From: Butyricimonas faecalis
Lineage (GTDB): Bacteria > Bacteroidota > Bacteroidia > Bacteroidales > Marinifilaceae
NCBI RefSeq assembly: GCF_003991565.1
Contig: NZ_CP032819.1
Location: forward strand, 4,216,001 to 4,280,000
Direction: 5' to 3'
Length of the DNA stretch: 64,000 bases
The translations under genes and the position numbers were made by a program. Positions 487-50,430 of this stretch are shown piece after piece. Within the stretch, counting starts at the first letter, position 1, and the number at the start of each line of letters is the position of its first letter. The notes under the pieces were generated by a model. That model did not search any database. It saw only the letters and a list, made by a program, of their open reading frames with translations, and had not been told where the DNA came from.

Positions 487-571
487 GTCAATATTGATTT
501 AGAAATGAATAATTGATGAATATCGGTGCAATAGTAGTAATAATATTTTGAATAAACAATATCTACACTTT

Positions 572-648
572 ATGAACCTTATATATAATAAGGTTCATAT
601 AAGGTTTCTATAAGGTATCTATAAGGTTCATGAAGGTATTAATTCGGT
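572..648. repeat. 11-bp-step direct repeat array (AAGGT units) with an inverted unit
   Basis: GGT occurs at 592, 603, 614, 625, 635 and 646, i.e. steps of 11, 11, 11, 10 and 11 bp. The first four units begin AAGGT(T/A). An inverted unit at 572-582 forms a 12-bp-arm palindrome with the first direct unit around 577-600. Located about 110 bp upstream of the next start codon, between divergent genes. One-turn spacing suggests iterated protein binding on one DNA face (inference). Confidence 0.75.
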
Positions 649-754
649 ATTCATCAAAAAATGAAGATGAATTTTTATTTCAACTTTTATGCTAATTAGC
701 TCTACTTTCAGATTAATTGTCGTATATTGCGGGTCTTAATTAAATAAAAGGATT

Positions 755-36621: not shown

Positions 36622-37986
36622 ATGAATAAACACTTTGGCGTAAATTGGGGTATAGCGGTAACGGTAATAGCTGTTTTGGGAGTGCTCGTTTGGCAGGCAC
36701 TTTCGATTGTTGAATTGTATCATTTCCAAAAAGAGAGATTTGTCACCAAGGTGAACCATAAGATTACTCATTTCGTTAACGAATTGAATTTGCTTGCTGT
36801 ACAAAAATCAGCTACCGTTCCCGTTGAGCGTTCTGTTCCTTGTTTGATGCTTACGAAAGGAGGAAAAAGCGAGAGGTGTCGACATTGGCGAGATGATGAT
36901 TGGGTTGATGCGGAATGTCGGGCAATATATGATATCCGGGATACAACTCTTTTGACATTGGAAAAGTTCTACTCGCTTCTTAGACAAAGCATGAGGATGG
37001 ATGAAAAATCTTTTCCTATTGAGATTAGCTTGTTGGATAGTTTTGGAAATAGAATTGATAGTTTTAGTTGTGGATATATACACCCTTGGTCTATGGTTAA
37101 AGCGGAACCCATTCGGTTATTTTTGGGGGAGAAGCACGTGTTAGAAGTTAGATTCATGTTTTCGATTCATCAGTTTTGGAACCGTTCGAAAAATTCTTTT
37201 ATTCTTTTATTCGTATTTATGGTTTTGTTGATTGTTTGTATTATGATCTTAATACGCAAGATTAACCAAGAGAGGAAACGTACTATCGGGCAACATCTTT
37301 TTCTTGATACCGTGATACATAATTTGCAATCACCTTTGGATTATATGAGTTTTACACAAGAAGTTCTTGACAAGAAATATGGAAGTATGATGGAAATAGA
37401 GGATCAACAGGCACTAGAAAGAATTCGGGAAAAACAATCGGATATGGGGCGGGCCATTACTCGTTTGTTAACCTTGTCGGATATATTTCACCGGATTCAG
37501 ATTTATCCTTATCCTCTTTGTTTGAAAGAGATGCTTGAAAAGCTAAATGCTTTGAATTTTGTGAAAATCCAACCTGGAAAACAGGTAGATATGAATATTG
37601 CTTGTGAGATGGAAAACCCGGAAATTTCTGTTGATCCGGTCTATTTCCCGATTGTTTTTGAAAATTTGATAGGAAATGCCATAAAGTATTCAGGAAAGAA
37701 CGTGAAAATAGATATTACTTGTCAAGAAAAGGGGAAATGGATTGAAATTCGAGTAAAGGACAATGGGGCAGGGATTCCCCCGCGTAGTTTAAAACATATT
37801 TTTGAAATTTACTATCGCGATCCTTCCATACGGGATGACCATTCGAGAAAAGGGTTCGGGATTGGTTTGTCTTTTGTGTATTCTGTAGTGAAAGCTCATC
37901 ATGGAAAGATTATTGTTCGTAGTATTGTAAATGTAGGAACAGAATTTATTATTATTTTACCTCATAGACAATGGAAAAGAAAATAG
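36622..37986 (+). CDS. Sensor histidine kinase
   Basis: 454 residues; ATG 36622 preferred to an upstream TTG. Two membrane helices (about 10-28 and 193-212) bracket a periplasmic domain of about 160 residues with four Cys. H-box HNLQSPLDYM (His233) with Asn instead of the usual Glu/Asp after His; N-box FENLIGNAIKYS (Asn352); G1 DNGAGI (380); G2 GFGIGL (411). Autophosphorylating kinase for an unknown signal. Overlaps the response-regulator gene by 16 bp, so tightly coupled. No target operon adjacent except the TPR gene. Confidence 0.93.
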   Translation: MNKHFGVNWGIAVTVIAVLGVLVWQALSIVELYHFQKERFVTKVNHKITHFVNELNLLAVQKSATVPVERSVPCLMLTKGGKSERCRHWRDDDWVDAECRAIYDIRDTTLLTLEKFYSLLRQSMRMDEKSFPIEISLLDSFGNRIDSFSCGYIHPWSMVKAEPIRLFLGEKHVLEVRFMFSIHQFWNRSKNSFILLFVFMVLLIVCIMILIRKINQERKRTIGQHLFLDTVIHNLQSPLDYMSFTQEVLDKKYGSMMEIEDQQALERIREKQSDMGRAITRLLTLSDIFHRIQIYPYPLCLKEMLEKLNALNFVKIQPGKQVDMNIACEMENPEISVDPVYFPIVFENLIGNAIKYSGKNVKIDITCQEKGKWIEIRVKDNGAGIPPRSLKHIFEIYYRDPSIRDDHSRKGFGIGLSFVYSVVKAHHGKIIVRSIVNVGTEFIIILPHRQWKRK

Positions 37987-38678
37987 ATGTTTTGTACGCA
38001 GAGGATGATGACAAGATGGCTAAGATGGTGAAAAATTTGCTGGAAGATCATGAATTTCATGTTCGGATTGCTTGTGACGGGAAGCGGGTGTGGGATGTTT
38101 TTCAGCATAGTCCCCCGGATTTGTTGCTGTTGGATTTGGAAATGCCGAAAAAAGATGGGTTGAAGATTGTTAAATTGGTTCGAAAGGTAAACAAACGAGT
38201 TCCGATCGTTTTTTATAGTTCGTACATGAATGTTGAGAAAGAATTGGAGGCGATAAAATTAGGAGCGGATGATTGTATTCGGAAAGGTTGCCCGATAGAG
38301 CTATTGTTGGAAAAATTGAGAAGTATTTATCGTAGAGTTGTACGAGATGAAGGAAGTCCTCAAATATATTTCTTATCTGAAACGACAAAATTTAATGCCG
38401 TGACTGGATTGTTAGTTATGAATGGGAAAAATTTGGTTCTAAAATCAATGGACTCCCGTTTGCTTCATTTGCTTTGTGTCAAAATGCACGAGATAGCAAG
38501 CAATGATTATTTGATTCGTGGATTATGGGGAATGGGGTATACAGAGAAGGGAAATGCATTGAGAAAAGGTATTACTCGTTTAAGAAGTATCTTGGAGGCA
38601 GATGCTTCTTTAATGATCGGAAATTCTTTTGGAGAAGGGTATTTTTTGACTTCTCGAGATTTGCATTTGAAGGTATAG
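37971..38678 (+). CDS. OmpR/PhoB-type response regulator
   Basis: 235 residues. Receiver: acidic pocket AEDDD (11-14), phosphoacceptor Asp55 in LLLLDLEMPKKDG, Ser83/84 switch, Lys105 in CIRKGCP (the usual KP reads KG here). C-terminal winged helix about 140-230 (LKSMDSRLLHLLCV, ALRKGITRLRSIL, GEGYFL). Cognate partner of the overlapping kinase. Target genes unknown. The winged-helix start replaces the usual LT-x-x-E by KSMDSR, a mild divergence. Confidence 0.92.
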   Translation: MEKKIDVLYAEDDDKMAKMVKNLLEDHEFHVRIACDGKRVWDVFQHSPPDLLLLDLEMPKKDGLKIVKLVRKVNKRVPIVFYSSYMNVEKELEAIKLGADDCIRKGCPIELLLEKLRSIYRRVVRDEGSPQIYFLSETTKFNAVTGLLVMNGKNLVLKSMDSRLLHLLCVKMHEIASNDYLIRGLWGMGYTEKGNALRKGITRLRSILEADASLMIGNSFGEGYFLTSRDLHLKV

Positions 38679-38864
38679 GGATGCATAACTTTATAATCTA
38701 AGTATCTCAATGCCTATTTGATAAACGAAATCGATCAAGATGTATTTGTATCTATGAGATTGTAGCGGGAAAGGTCGTATTTGTTTGCCATGTAATTTAC
38801 TCCCGTGATGTTACTCTAATTTAACCCAAATAAGGAAGTAATCTTACCCCAATAATCCTACATA
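38679..38864. other. Intergenic DNA before the 11-bp array
   Basis: No gene and no clear terminator; sequence is ordinary AT-rich spacer up to the ordered repeats that begin at 38865. Confidence 0.5.
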
Positions 38865-39007
38865 TTCGTTGCGCTTTCGTTGTTCATTCGTTGTTCAAAC
38901 GTTCCGGAATGGTTGAGCTCTGTTTAAGCTTCGAATAATCTTCGAATATGTGGAATTATTTCCTTAGTATCTCCCTAGGTTTTCCCTAGGTTCTTATTAT
39001 AAGTCAG
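38865..39007. repeat. Long 11-bp-step repeat array upstream of the TPR gene
   Basis: Thirteen consecutive 11-mers in one register. TTCGTTGCGCT, TTCGTTGTTCA and TTCGTTGTTCA open the array; TCGAATAATCT/TCGAATATGTG and CTAGGTTTTCC/CTAGGTTCTTA are adjacent similar pairs later. CGT or GGT falls at 38867, 38878, 38889, 38900 and 38911. Units drift in sequence while the phase is kept. Ends about 110 bp before the TPR start codon, as in the 590 array. Confidence 0.8.
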
Positions 39008-39116
39008 GCTTGGTGGTGTAGGGAAAATTCATACGGGTATTATGAACTTGATACAGGAAGTAATACAGATGCGAACTTTTTTATTATCTTTATCCCCCAA
39101 AATATATGCTTATCGA

Positions 39117-41081
39117 ATGAAGAAATTTGGCATTATACTATTCTTCTGTTTGGCGACATTGGGAGTGTCGGCACAATGGAATACGACAAATATGTTGCGA
39201 GTGGGAAAGAGTGCGATCATGTTTGACGACTACGTGAGTGCAATTGAAAACTTCAATAATATTATACGGATAAAGCCTTACTTATCTGAACCTTATTTCT
39301 TCCGGGGACTGGCAAAGTTGAACCTGGATGATTTTGAGGGGGCGATAAGGGATTATACACAGGCGATAGAGTTGAACCCGAATTATTTCCATGCTTACAT
39401 GTACCGGGGAATAGCCTATCATAACATGAAGCAGTACGAGGAGGCCATGCACGATTACAATACGGCAATCGCGATAAATCCGGGAGAGGCTTACGTGTTC
39501 GCGAACAGGGCAATTACCGAGGCGGATATGGGTGATTTCAAGGCGGCGGAGAAGGATTACTCAAAGGCGTTGATTATTGATAAAAACCTGTTGCCTGCCT
39601 ATCTGAACCGGGCGATCATGCGGGAGAAGCTGGGCGATCAAGAGGGGGCTATTGCGGATTGTAACATGGCGATCAAGTTGAATATGTTTTCAGATGATGC
39701 TTACGGGTTGAGGGGATATTTGAGGTTTCAGGCAAAAGAGTATCACGACGCGATAGAGGATTATAACAAGGCGTTGAAGATTAACCCGGAGAACAAGCGG
39801 ATTCTTATGAGCCGGGCGATTACTTGGTACGAGATGAAAAAGTATCCCGAGGCTTTGGAGGATTACACGGCCGTCTTGAAAGTGGATAGTACTTACGCGT
39901 ATGCTTATTATAACCGGGCTTTGTTGCGGTCGGAAATCGGAGACGTGAATAATGCCATTCATGATTTTGACCAGGTGTTGGAGATGAACCCGGATAACAT
40001 TTTGATTTATTTCAACCGCGGATTGTTGAAAATGGAGATCAAGGATTACGAGGGGGCTTATAATGACTTTTCCCAGAGTATCTCGATCTACCCCGATTTC
40101 GTGAAGGCATACCTGGCAAGAGCCGCGACGAGCATGGATATGCGGGATTACGATGCGGCCGAAAAGGATCGTTACAAGGCGGAAGAGATCATGGACCGCT
40201 ACCGACGGATGAAGGAGGGGGATCGGAATGCTTTGGTGGATACCACGGAAAATTTCAAGCGACTGATAGATATAAATTCCCGGGATGACCGGATGAAAGA
40301 CGTGATTAACGGACGCTTGCAGGATCGGAACGTGATTATCGAATTGCAGGATATGTTTATCGTGCAGTACTTGTCTTTGGATACATTACGAAAAGGGAAG
40401 GTGCAGTATTTTGACAAGCGGATCATGAAGTTTAACCAGGAACATAATTATAACCCGGCGTTGACCGTCTCGAATAAGAAATTTAATTACCCGAGGGAAT
40501 TCGAGGATAATTATATCGAGACGCTGTCTTCGGATATCCGGAAAAACAAGGAGGTCACGGATGCATTGTTGCTGCGCGGTTCGTTGTACTTGAACCGGGG
40601 AGATTACACGAAAGCGATCGAAGATTTTCGGGCCGTGCTGGAGCGTGAGCCGAATCATTTGTTTGCTTTGATGAATTTGGCAAGTGCCCGTTCCCGAATG
40701 TACGACTACATCGAGTCGATAGAAGAGAAGACTTCCCGTGTCGTGGGTGAGGAGAAGAAAGTGGAGCGGAACGTGGATTATTCTTTGGTGTTGGAAGGAA
40801 ATAACAAATGTCTGGAGATTGATCCGGAATTCGTTTTTGCCCTGTTTAATATCGCTAACGTGTATGCCAAGAGCGGTGAGATCCAGAAAGCGATCGATAT
40901 GTACACGAAGGTGCTGGAGGTGGACGGGGATATCGCCGAGGCTTATTTTAACCGGGGGCTACTCCATATCTACCAGGGAGACCGGAGTGCGGCCAACGTG
41001 GATTTAAGTAAAGCCGGGGAGCTTGGGCTGACGGATTCTTATAGCATTATCAAGCGCTATTGCTCGGTGGAGGAGGAGTAA
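39117..41081 (+). CDS. Exported tetratricopeptide-repeat protein
   Basis: 654 residues; start at ATG 39117 gives a signal peptide (MKKFGIILFFCLATLGVSA), whereas an upstream in-frame ATG at 39042 does not and includes the probable -7 box TATCTTTA (39085-39092). About nine TPR units run from residue 35 to 345 (e.g. AIRDYTQAIELNPNYFHAYM, AIEDYNKALKINPENKRILM), then a non-TPR region of about 110 residues, then at least three more TPRs to the end. A periplasmic scaffold for protein interactions; partners unknown. Preceded by an 11-bp-step repeat array. Confidence 0.9.
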   Translation: MKKFGIILFFCLATLGVSAQWNTTNMLRVGKSAIMFDDYVSAIENFNNIIRIKPYLSEPYFFRGLAKLNLDDFEGAIRDYTQAIELNPNYFHAYMYRGIAYHNMKQYEEAMHDYNTAIAINPGEAYVFANRAITEADMGDFKAAEKDYSKALIIDKNLLPAYLNRAIMREKLGDQEGAIADCNMAIKLNMFSDDAYGLRGYLRFQAKEYHDAIEDYNKALKINPENKRILMSRAITWYEMKKYPEALEDYTAVLKVDSTYAYAYYNRALLRSEIGDVNNAIHDFDQVLEMNPDNILIYFNRGLLKMEIKDYEGAYNDFSQSISIYPDFVKAYLARAATSMDMRDYDAAEKDRYKAEEIMDRYRRMKEGDRNALVDTTENFKRLIDINSRDDRMKDVINGRLQDRNVIIELQDMFIVQYLSLDTLRKGKVQYFDKRIMKFNQEHNYNPALTVSNKKFNYPREFEDNYIETLSSDIRKNKEVTDALLLRGSLYLNRGDYTKAIEDFRAVLEREPNHLFALMNLASARSRMYDYIESIEEKTSRVVGEEKKVERNVDYSLVLEGNNKCLEIDPEFVFALFNIANVYAKSGEIQKAIDMYTKVLEVDGDIAEAYFNRGLLHIYQGDRSAANVDLSKAGELGLTDSYSIIKRYCSVEEE

Positions 41082-50120: not shown

Positions 50121-50276
50121 TATTCCGCTTCTTGTTCGGGGTTTCCTGGTCCTTGGTTAATGGTTGGTCTATCCCATGAACCTGTCATGTATATTCATGC
50201 GCCGTTGCGTTTTTTTGGAGCGACGTTGTGGATTGGTAGTGTTTCCCGGCCCGCTCGATCCCTGGGACCGGTCGAT
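50121..50276. other. Intergenic DNA before the 11-bp array
   Basis: Low coding potential; short plus-strand frames here and up to 50561 are not supported as genes. Confidence 0.5.
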
Positions 50277-50430
50277 CCTTGCCCGTGATTTTCCCGTAGT
50301 TTTCCGGTTGCATGCAGGTGTTAAAGGCGTATCATTGCCGCATCAAAGACGTTTCAAAGACGTTCACGGGCGTCCTTGAAAGGTGTATATTCAGGTATTA
50401 TTATCTTTTTGCCGGTTGTTTTTCCCGTTG
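50277..50430. repeat. 11-bp-step array upstream of the rRNA promoters
   Basis: (C/G)GT at 50284, 50295, 50306, 50317, 50328, (CGC at 50339), 50350 and 50361: eight consecutive steps of exactly 11 bp. The unit TCAAAGACGTT is perfectly duplicated at 50343 and 50354. Register then slips by one (CGT 50371, GGT 50382, GGT 50394). Same phase logic as the arrays at 590 and 38865. Confidence 0.78.

Follow-up and report, generated by a model that had tools for sequence, protein, structure and literature searches.

The irregular stretch at positions 38865-39007 of the window (the whole 64-kb stretch of DNA analyzed here) belongs to one of several families of arrays built on an 11-bp step. The complete element in the window is non-coding and consists of 11-bp sites arrayed with rough symmetry on double-stranded DNA. 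Its family (F1) is dispersed over the chromosome, and at least three further families of differing sequence (F2, F3, and F4) share the register; F4 occupies conserved loci around oriC and parS. The reading that we favor, tentatively, is that these are symmetric arrays of one-turn sites for a putative double-stranded DNA-binding protein with a role in chromosome organization or segregation.

When the 143 bp are compared with themselves, lag 11 gives an identity of 0.57 and lag 22 one of 0.41, whereas all other lags from 1 to 39 give 0.20-0.33. The best 99-position lag-11 score is 58/99; dinucleotide shuffles reach a mean of 30.5 and a maximum of 46, and none of 1000 attains 58, whether lag 11 alone or the full range of lags 8-15 is considered. 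Within the whole window the array scores 66/110 at lag 11, compared with at most 50/110 in 60 Markov shuffles. The first-pass annotation had described thirteen 11-mers in register from 38865, with neighboring units alike and distant ones unlike. The units are as listed, the register stands against the shuffles (0/1000 at lag 11), and the drift recurs in aligned copies of F1 and F4, where identity falls with distance. Mean identity at lags 11, 22, 33, and 44 is 0.455, 0.423, 0.317, and 0.306 over 19 aligned F1 copies (L008, L013, and L036, with a shifted axis, are omitted from the pairing, unit, and lag-identity counts) and 0.493, 0.405, 0.323, and 0.264 over 31 aligned F4 copies (13 of 44, with another axis, are left out of the unit and lag-identity counts). 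Alignment A2 does not include L013 and L036, and alignment A1 does not include L156, L159, L162, and L174. The proposed extent holds for the 143-bp register, but the true element is larger: by profile match (G000:C1:4254808-4255017) and aligned copies it covers 210 bp, 38808-39017 on the forward strand, about 19 units of 11 bp forming a quasi-palindrome, a symmetry absent from the earlier description. The thirteen units correspond to the core and right arm (38865-39007, forward strand); the last of them, at 38997, is weak. The best axis lies between 38905 and 38906, in an unstranded symmetry center TTCC/GGAA (38902-38909). As judged from the aligned copies, the left arm (38808-38905, forward strand) has A/C-rich outer units and TTCGTTG-type inner units, and the right arm (38906-39017, forward strand) has GCTTCGA-type inner units and CTAGGTTTTCC-type outer units. 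In the window copy the symmetry is modest: 27/45 positions are paired, as many as in 1 of 200 same-length stretches of the window, and 48/95 are paired about the best axis. Tandem Repeats Finder breaks the array into four short rows.

The genome of the window (G000) comprises 4.98 Mb in two contigs. With the window stretch as query, 15 other places are found; the union with a search using a relative as query amounts to 22 copies, and a profile search again gives 22. Lags 11 and 22 are the top two of lags 7-25 in each of the 16 F1 copies tested (16/16). All 22 copies are quasi-palindromic, with 46-61 of 95 positions paired. In the 19 copies counted, conserved pairs alternate with conserved non-pairs (C/C in 19/19 at distances 56 and 78, T/T in 19/19 at 66), and the pairing profile peaks narrowly at period 11 among periods 5-19. 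A profile search of 56 genomes of the family finds F1 in six, all Butyricimonas; the window F1 copy and one F4 copy were also compared with plasmid and phage records, with no match. In five F1 copies (L001, L002, L004, L008, and L013) the core looks, by eye, inverted relative to the outer arms, with top-strand TT for AA in each arm, suggestive of a flipped core. At one orthologous F1 site (L194 in G001, L046 in G004) a nearly perfect palindrome of about 80 bp is seen, again by eye, in one species only, which suggests occasional template-switch correction between the arms. F1 lies within about 350 bp of the start of an F3 match in 4 of the 22 copies (G000:C1:4912622/4912949, 4638837/4639164, 4394648/4394963, and 2245450/2245256), and compound elements are therefore possible.

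Arms that pair could form a structured RNA or an extruded DNA hairpin with mismatches about once per turn, an explanation that we consider very improbable. One turn of an A-form duplex is 11 bp, and the narrow period-11 peak of the F1 pairing profile counts in favor of such a structure, as do predicted folds of -43 to -80 kcal/mol for 210 nt (eight copies, folded without a shuffled control) and the 42 G-U against 28 A-C combinations in the 53 mostly paired F1 columns of 19 copies. Over all positions, however, G-U and A-C are balanced (211:191 in F4, 139:151 in F1). The 13 orthologue pairs compared, in which G000 partners are shared, provide 671 registered positions with 5 compensatory changes against 175 gained or lost pairs, and 28 positions would be expected to change on both sides by chance, paired or not (298 unregistered positions, nearly all of four pairs, are omitted). 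Covariation of inverted pairs relative to permutation is positive in neither family (z -4.6 for F1, z -1.2 for F4). No Rfam match at gathering score falls over the arrays of the window and nine loci; two microRNA families in F4 loci score far below the Rfam thresholds. The lack of compensation between the arms argues against a functional hairpin, and stable but varied RNA hairpins were rejected as the function because the pairing does not covary. The symmetry thus appears to be mainly a property of conserved positions, as expected for double-stranded DNA sites.

A lag scan of 224 kb of G000 detects five lag-11 arrays, three of them inside the window, and one of 120 kb of G003 detects four. G001, G011, and G016, scanned over 120 kb each, have none, and one Markov shuffle of each scanned stretch yields none either. 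The excess at lag 11 over shuffled sequence that the first-pass annotation had called for is thus present in G000, where this lag has the most clusters of lags 8-30, and in G003, and does not extend to the other three. Lag 14 comes second in G000 with 4 clusters and ties with lag 11 in G003, at 4 each. Overlap with predicted ORFs is at most 1% in eight of these nine lag-11 arrays and 36% in the remaining one. The window carries an F2 array of ATAAGGTTTCT-type units at 526-697 (forward strand; 52/88 and 61/110 at lag 11) and an F3 array of TCAAAGACGTT-type units at 50262-50378 (forward strand; 50/88), about 0.5 kb upstream of a 16S rRNA gene; F3 occurs in 31 places of G000. F4, with TAGCGTTTTAA units, was found in L062 and L063. 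A DNA search of seven genomes finds F2 in six (in one as a 24-base match outside the genus) and F3 and F4 in five each. Palindromes are equaled by few of 200 control stretches: 1 and 4 for F4, 5 and 5 for F2 (26/45 positions and 5 controls for the window array), 8 for F3 (25/45 in the window array), and 3 for F6. Two G003 arrays of the GGCGATAATCG type are not palindromic (190 and 42 of 200 controls equal), which counts against protein-bound arrays. Butyricimonas belongs to the Odoribacteraceae in NCBI. In the profile search of 56 genomes, F4 is found in ten, all six Butyricimonas and four of other genera, F4 and F2 matches being separated by their positions in the DNA search. One F4-like locus in each of the four outsiders has its best lag at 11 (51, 49, 50, and 45 of 77, the last ahead of lag 7 by a small margin) and differs in its units, and such arrays with other units outside the genus count in favor of the protein-array reading. 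In the portions of the open-licence PMC literature available to the search, no description of these 11-bp elements was found.

Genome-wide periodicity of 10-11 bp is a different phenomenon: as described in the available part of the source, it consists of weak A/T-tract phasing, mostly in coding DNA (PMC4132750), whereas the arrays here have the same period and are discrete and intergenic, with about 0.5 identity at lag 11. The same partial source links an approximately 11-bp period in bacterial genomes to negative supercoiling (PMC4132750), and the arrays might accordingly be DNA-topology elements, whose bends, phased at about 11 bp, would favor plectonemic supercoiling or wrapping by gyrase/HU. 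F4 units, in which A/T-rich and GCG stretches alternate every 11 bp, would fit such a role. It is nonetheless improbable, since neither the F1 cores (TGAGCAACGAA) nor the GGCGATAATCG arrays of G003 are A-tract arrays and the similarity covers most of the unit.

Each of six Butyricimonas genomes contains one exact parS-like palindrome. In five genomes the cumulative GC-skew minimum lies 8.8-11.5 kb from parS (16-19 kb beside parS were read), with a DnaA-box-like word at most 2.6 kb from the minimum; minimum and word together are taken as the probable oriC. In G000 the best match to the DnaA C-terminal domain (G000:C1:1763534-1763740) is about 1.28 Mb from this skew-defined origin. An F4 array lies within 0.5 kb of the minimum in G000 and G005; in the other three genomes none there exceeds the threshold. 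Taking G000, G001, and G003 together, 30 of 44 F4 copies fall in the fifth of the half-chromosome nearest parS, and none of 100,000 uniform draws gives so small a mean distance. All 17 copies of G001 and G003 lie at a relative distance of at most 0.21, although these two are close relatives, and their counts are not independent. In G005 the 1.41-Mb contig with parS carries all 21 F4 profile matches (12 places), and in G002 8 of 12 F4 places are on the parS contig among the matches listed (18 of 23). For the same three genomes, F2 is confined to relative distances of at most 0.55 (20/20, P 0.0016) and F3 has a mild origin bias (P 0.007). Concentration in the origin domain across species is found for F4 and not for F1, which is uniform over G000, G001, and G003 (mean relative distance from parS 0.508). 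The nearest F1 copy to the origin of G000 is at 0.29, and the parS contig of G005 has none of 13 F1 matches; exclusion of F1 from the origin domain as a rule was rejected, as G001 and G003 have copies there. Compared with random placement, F4 sites are more evenly spaced in G000 (17 of 27 sites, P 0.003), G005 (P 0.005), and G003 (P 0.02), but not significantly so in G001 (P 0.10) and G002 (P 0.47). The zoning and even spacing of F4, together with its orthologous loci and a symmetry without covariation, count for the protein-array reading; the absence of zoning in F1 and the lack of significantly even spacing in G001 and G002 count against it.

Flanking DNA assigns 8 of 9 G003 F4 loci to loci of G001 and 7 of 9 to loci of G000, and seven F4 sites occupy loci shared by three species. 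The orthologous F4 cores of G003 and G000 have an overall identity of 75.6%, yet their lag-11 identity is still 0.44-0.58, and this retention of the register as the sequence diverges supports protein-bound arrays. Against them stands the finding that the cores (about 75-82%) diverge faster than well-aligned neighboring genes (87-90%); pooled spacers, poor alignments included, are 63.0% identical, below the cores. The first-pass annotation had also offered growth by local duplication. Indels of unit length, identified by reading (-22 bp in L013, +11 in L159, +33 in L156, and -11 in L173), agree with it, apart from a 2-bp insertion at the axis of several F4 copies, as does a modest homogenization of neighboring units within F1 copies (z +3.8 and +4.3 at lags 11 and 22, against +1.6 and +2.6 at the control lags 10 and 12). 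In F4, however, the effect is reversed (z -3.7 at lag 11, with +3.0 and +3.4 at lags 10 and 12). Duplication shapes the arrays and alone does not explain them.

A close rival to the protein-array reading, and itself a real possibility, is that the families are dispersed mobile repeats of the MITE, REP, or ERIC type with an internal tandem array, like BrickBuilt of Porphyromonas gingivalis. The 11-bp period would then stem from slippage and template switching, for which the unit-length indels also count, and insertion bias, copy history, or inheritance would account for the zoning. REP/BIME, ERIC, and RUP elements are short non-coding palindromic repeats between genes, and the arrays resemble them in being intergenic, non-coding, palindromic, dispersed, and multicopy; 60 of 66 F1/F4 loci have no predicted ORF of at least 70 aa across the center. 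To our knowledge, those elements show neither a whole-element 11-bp register nor origin zoning. BrickBuilt is, on the accessible part of its description, the closest known element in anatomy: a MITE of 19 copies, always intergenic, whose 23-nt tandem repeats lie inside inverted-repeat ends and which has bidirectional promoter activity (PMC4596501). It shares with the arrays here a host among the Bacteroidales, an intergenic position, about 20 copies per genome, and an internal tandem array, and it has inverted-repeat ends around the array with the transposase not inside. Its 23-nt repeats differ in being one repeated sequence without spacers, and an 11-bp register, mirror-image arms, and origin zoning are not mentioned in the accessible part of the source (PMC4596501).

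Further evidence for mobility comes from the 22 F1 and 27 F4 copies of G000, some about 90% alike, and from a terminal repeat (consensus TTAACGTGAGTTCGATATAA, at most 4 mismatches) found beside 10 of 44 F4 loci (9 of 27 in G000) and 5 of 22 F1 loci. Within 2 mismatches it occurs in 31 places of G000, compared with 2 for the reversed pattern. In two F4 loci, L149 and L159, it stands at either end, with about 400 bp from one to the other; L159 also has, by eye in this one copy, a possible 5-bp target duplication. Terminal repeats beside such loci, on both sides in two, indicate that part of the dispersal is MITE-like, and their presence on some copies weighs against the protein-array reading. 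Unlike BrickBuilt, most F4 and F1 copies have no terminal repeat at the threshold used, and none lies within 3 mismatches inside the window. F4 sites with locus-specific arms do not have it (0/6 such loci in G000, 0/8 in G001, and 1/9 in G003), and these sites are conserved at the same loci across species. That several families of differing sequence have one period also speaks against mobile repeats, and origin zoning would need a separate explanation. The likeness to BrickBuilt and the palindrome controls raised the weight of the mobile-repeat explanation and lowered that of the protein-array, address-system (below), and hairpin readings. The two leading readings are not exclusive: a mobile element may carry or have captured host sites. 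Should the selfish reading be true, the families would form a MITE-like class with an unusual period and origin bias. Arrays may also be insertion targets. The G003 F4 site L174 (2590-4080) is half present: its left half is followed by an insertion with ORFs that resemble an IS3-type transposase pair, the right core was not found, and the right outer flank resumes after the insertion. By eye, end sequences like those of this insertion adjoin the arrays in L030 and L048.

For the protein-array reading, the closest functional analogue may be parC of plasmid R1, the ParMRC centromere, which reportedly consists of ten direct repeats flanking a promoter. Like the arrays here, it has 11-bp repeats, which in R1 are read by a DNA-binding protein; unlike it, the arrays are chromosomal, occupy dozens of loci, and have arms in opposite orientation around an axis. 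A minimum of two 11-bp repeats is required by R1 ParR, according to the part of the source available (PMC9426499). By analogy, a sequence-specific protein would bind about one site per helical turn and, like ParR on the parC repeats, might spread or oligomerize away from the axis. The arrays would thereby serve chromosome organization or segregation, with one protein or a related set reading all families; F4 would serve the origin domain, F2 the origin-proximal half, and F1 and F3 the wider chromosome. The suggestion of the first-pass annotation that a protein touches each turn on the same face survives in part. Contact at each turn is favored, but a strict 11-bp step drifts off one face, since relaxed B-DNA has 10.5 bp per turn and the difference adds up to about one turn over some 20 units. 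Strict 11-bp steps would suit a helical protein filament or underwound DNA better than flat contact on one face.

Sites for MatP (matS), Noc, and SlmA are many single short palindromes biased along the origin-terminus axis. The arrays resemble them in their number and origin-terminus bias and differ in being 11-bp arrays of at least 120 bp in several sequence families. We know of no large-scale chromosome-organizing site in Bacteroidota besides parS, and a literature search on such sites in Bacteroidetes found nothing relevant. A more ambitious version, which we regard as doubtful, is that Butyricimonas, and apparently members of other genera in the same family too, use a chromosome-wide address system, in which families of 11-bp arrays occupy their own zones along the origin-terminus axis, F4 stands at fixed loci roughly evenly around oriC, and a putative filament-forming protein acts as reader. 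Register and symmetry, rather than exact sequence, would then be under selection, and a kept register and locus with drifting unit sequence would be an unusual non-coding constraint. If F4 is a chromosome-organizing site, it gives defined DNA baits and loci, and clear Hi-C and deletion predictions.

The window element lies between a histidine kinase/OmpR-type regulator pair and a TPR gene. The response regulator gene (37971-38678, forward strand; Pfam Response_reg and Trans_reg_C) ends about 130 bp before the element. OmpR-type regulators as a family bind tandem 11-bp repeats, and the element could on these grounds be the operator of its neighbor. This is extremely unlikely, as the flanking genes of 66 F1/F4 loci (3-5 kb each), compared with the window's kinase and regulator, include a homologue at only 2, one being the window locus itself, and autoregulation by the neighboring regulator was dropped for this reason. 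The TPR protein gene (39117-41081, forward strand; ORF list and Pfam TPR families) has a further upstream ATG at 39042; its likely start is the ATG at 39117, in agreement with the distance of about 110 bp from the array end given in the first-pass annotation. Nothing ties the array to this gene, as the 21 other F1 copies are located elsewhere. Relatives of the TPR protein were found at five loci, in Candidatus B. faecavium (96%), B. sp. Marseille-P3923 (86%), B. synergistica (87%), Sanguibacteroides (73%), and one distant case (26%); with three of the five in Butyricimonas, the window very probably comes from this genus. The expectation that orthologous spacers upstream of this gene would carry the array is borne out in part: the spacers in L054 and L056 have a moderate lag-11 excess (equaled by 1 and 5 of 1000 shuffles at lag 11 and by 12 and 14 at any lag from 8 to 15), whereas that of the closest relative, Candidatus B. 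faecavium (L053), has none (182/1000 shuffles equal), which counts against protein-bound arrays. Visual inspection of L054 and L056 had suggested arrays upstream of the gene; these were rejected, being below the 36/66 threshold with only moderate results on shuffling. About 0.2 kb downstream of the TPR gene of Candidatus B. faecavium there is a strong lag-11 array (L053:8207-8319), which scores 42/66 and is equaled by 0 of 1000 shuffles.
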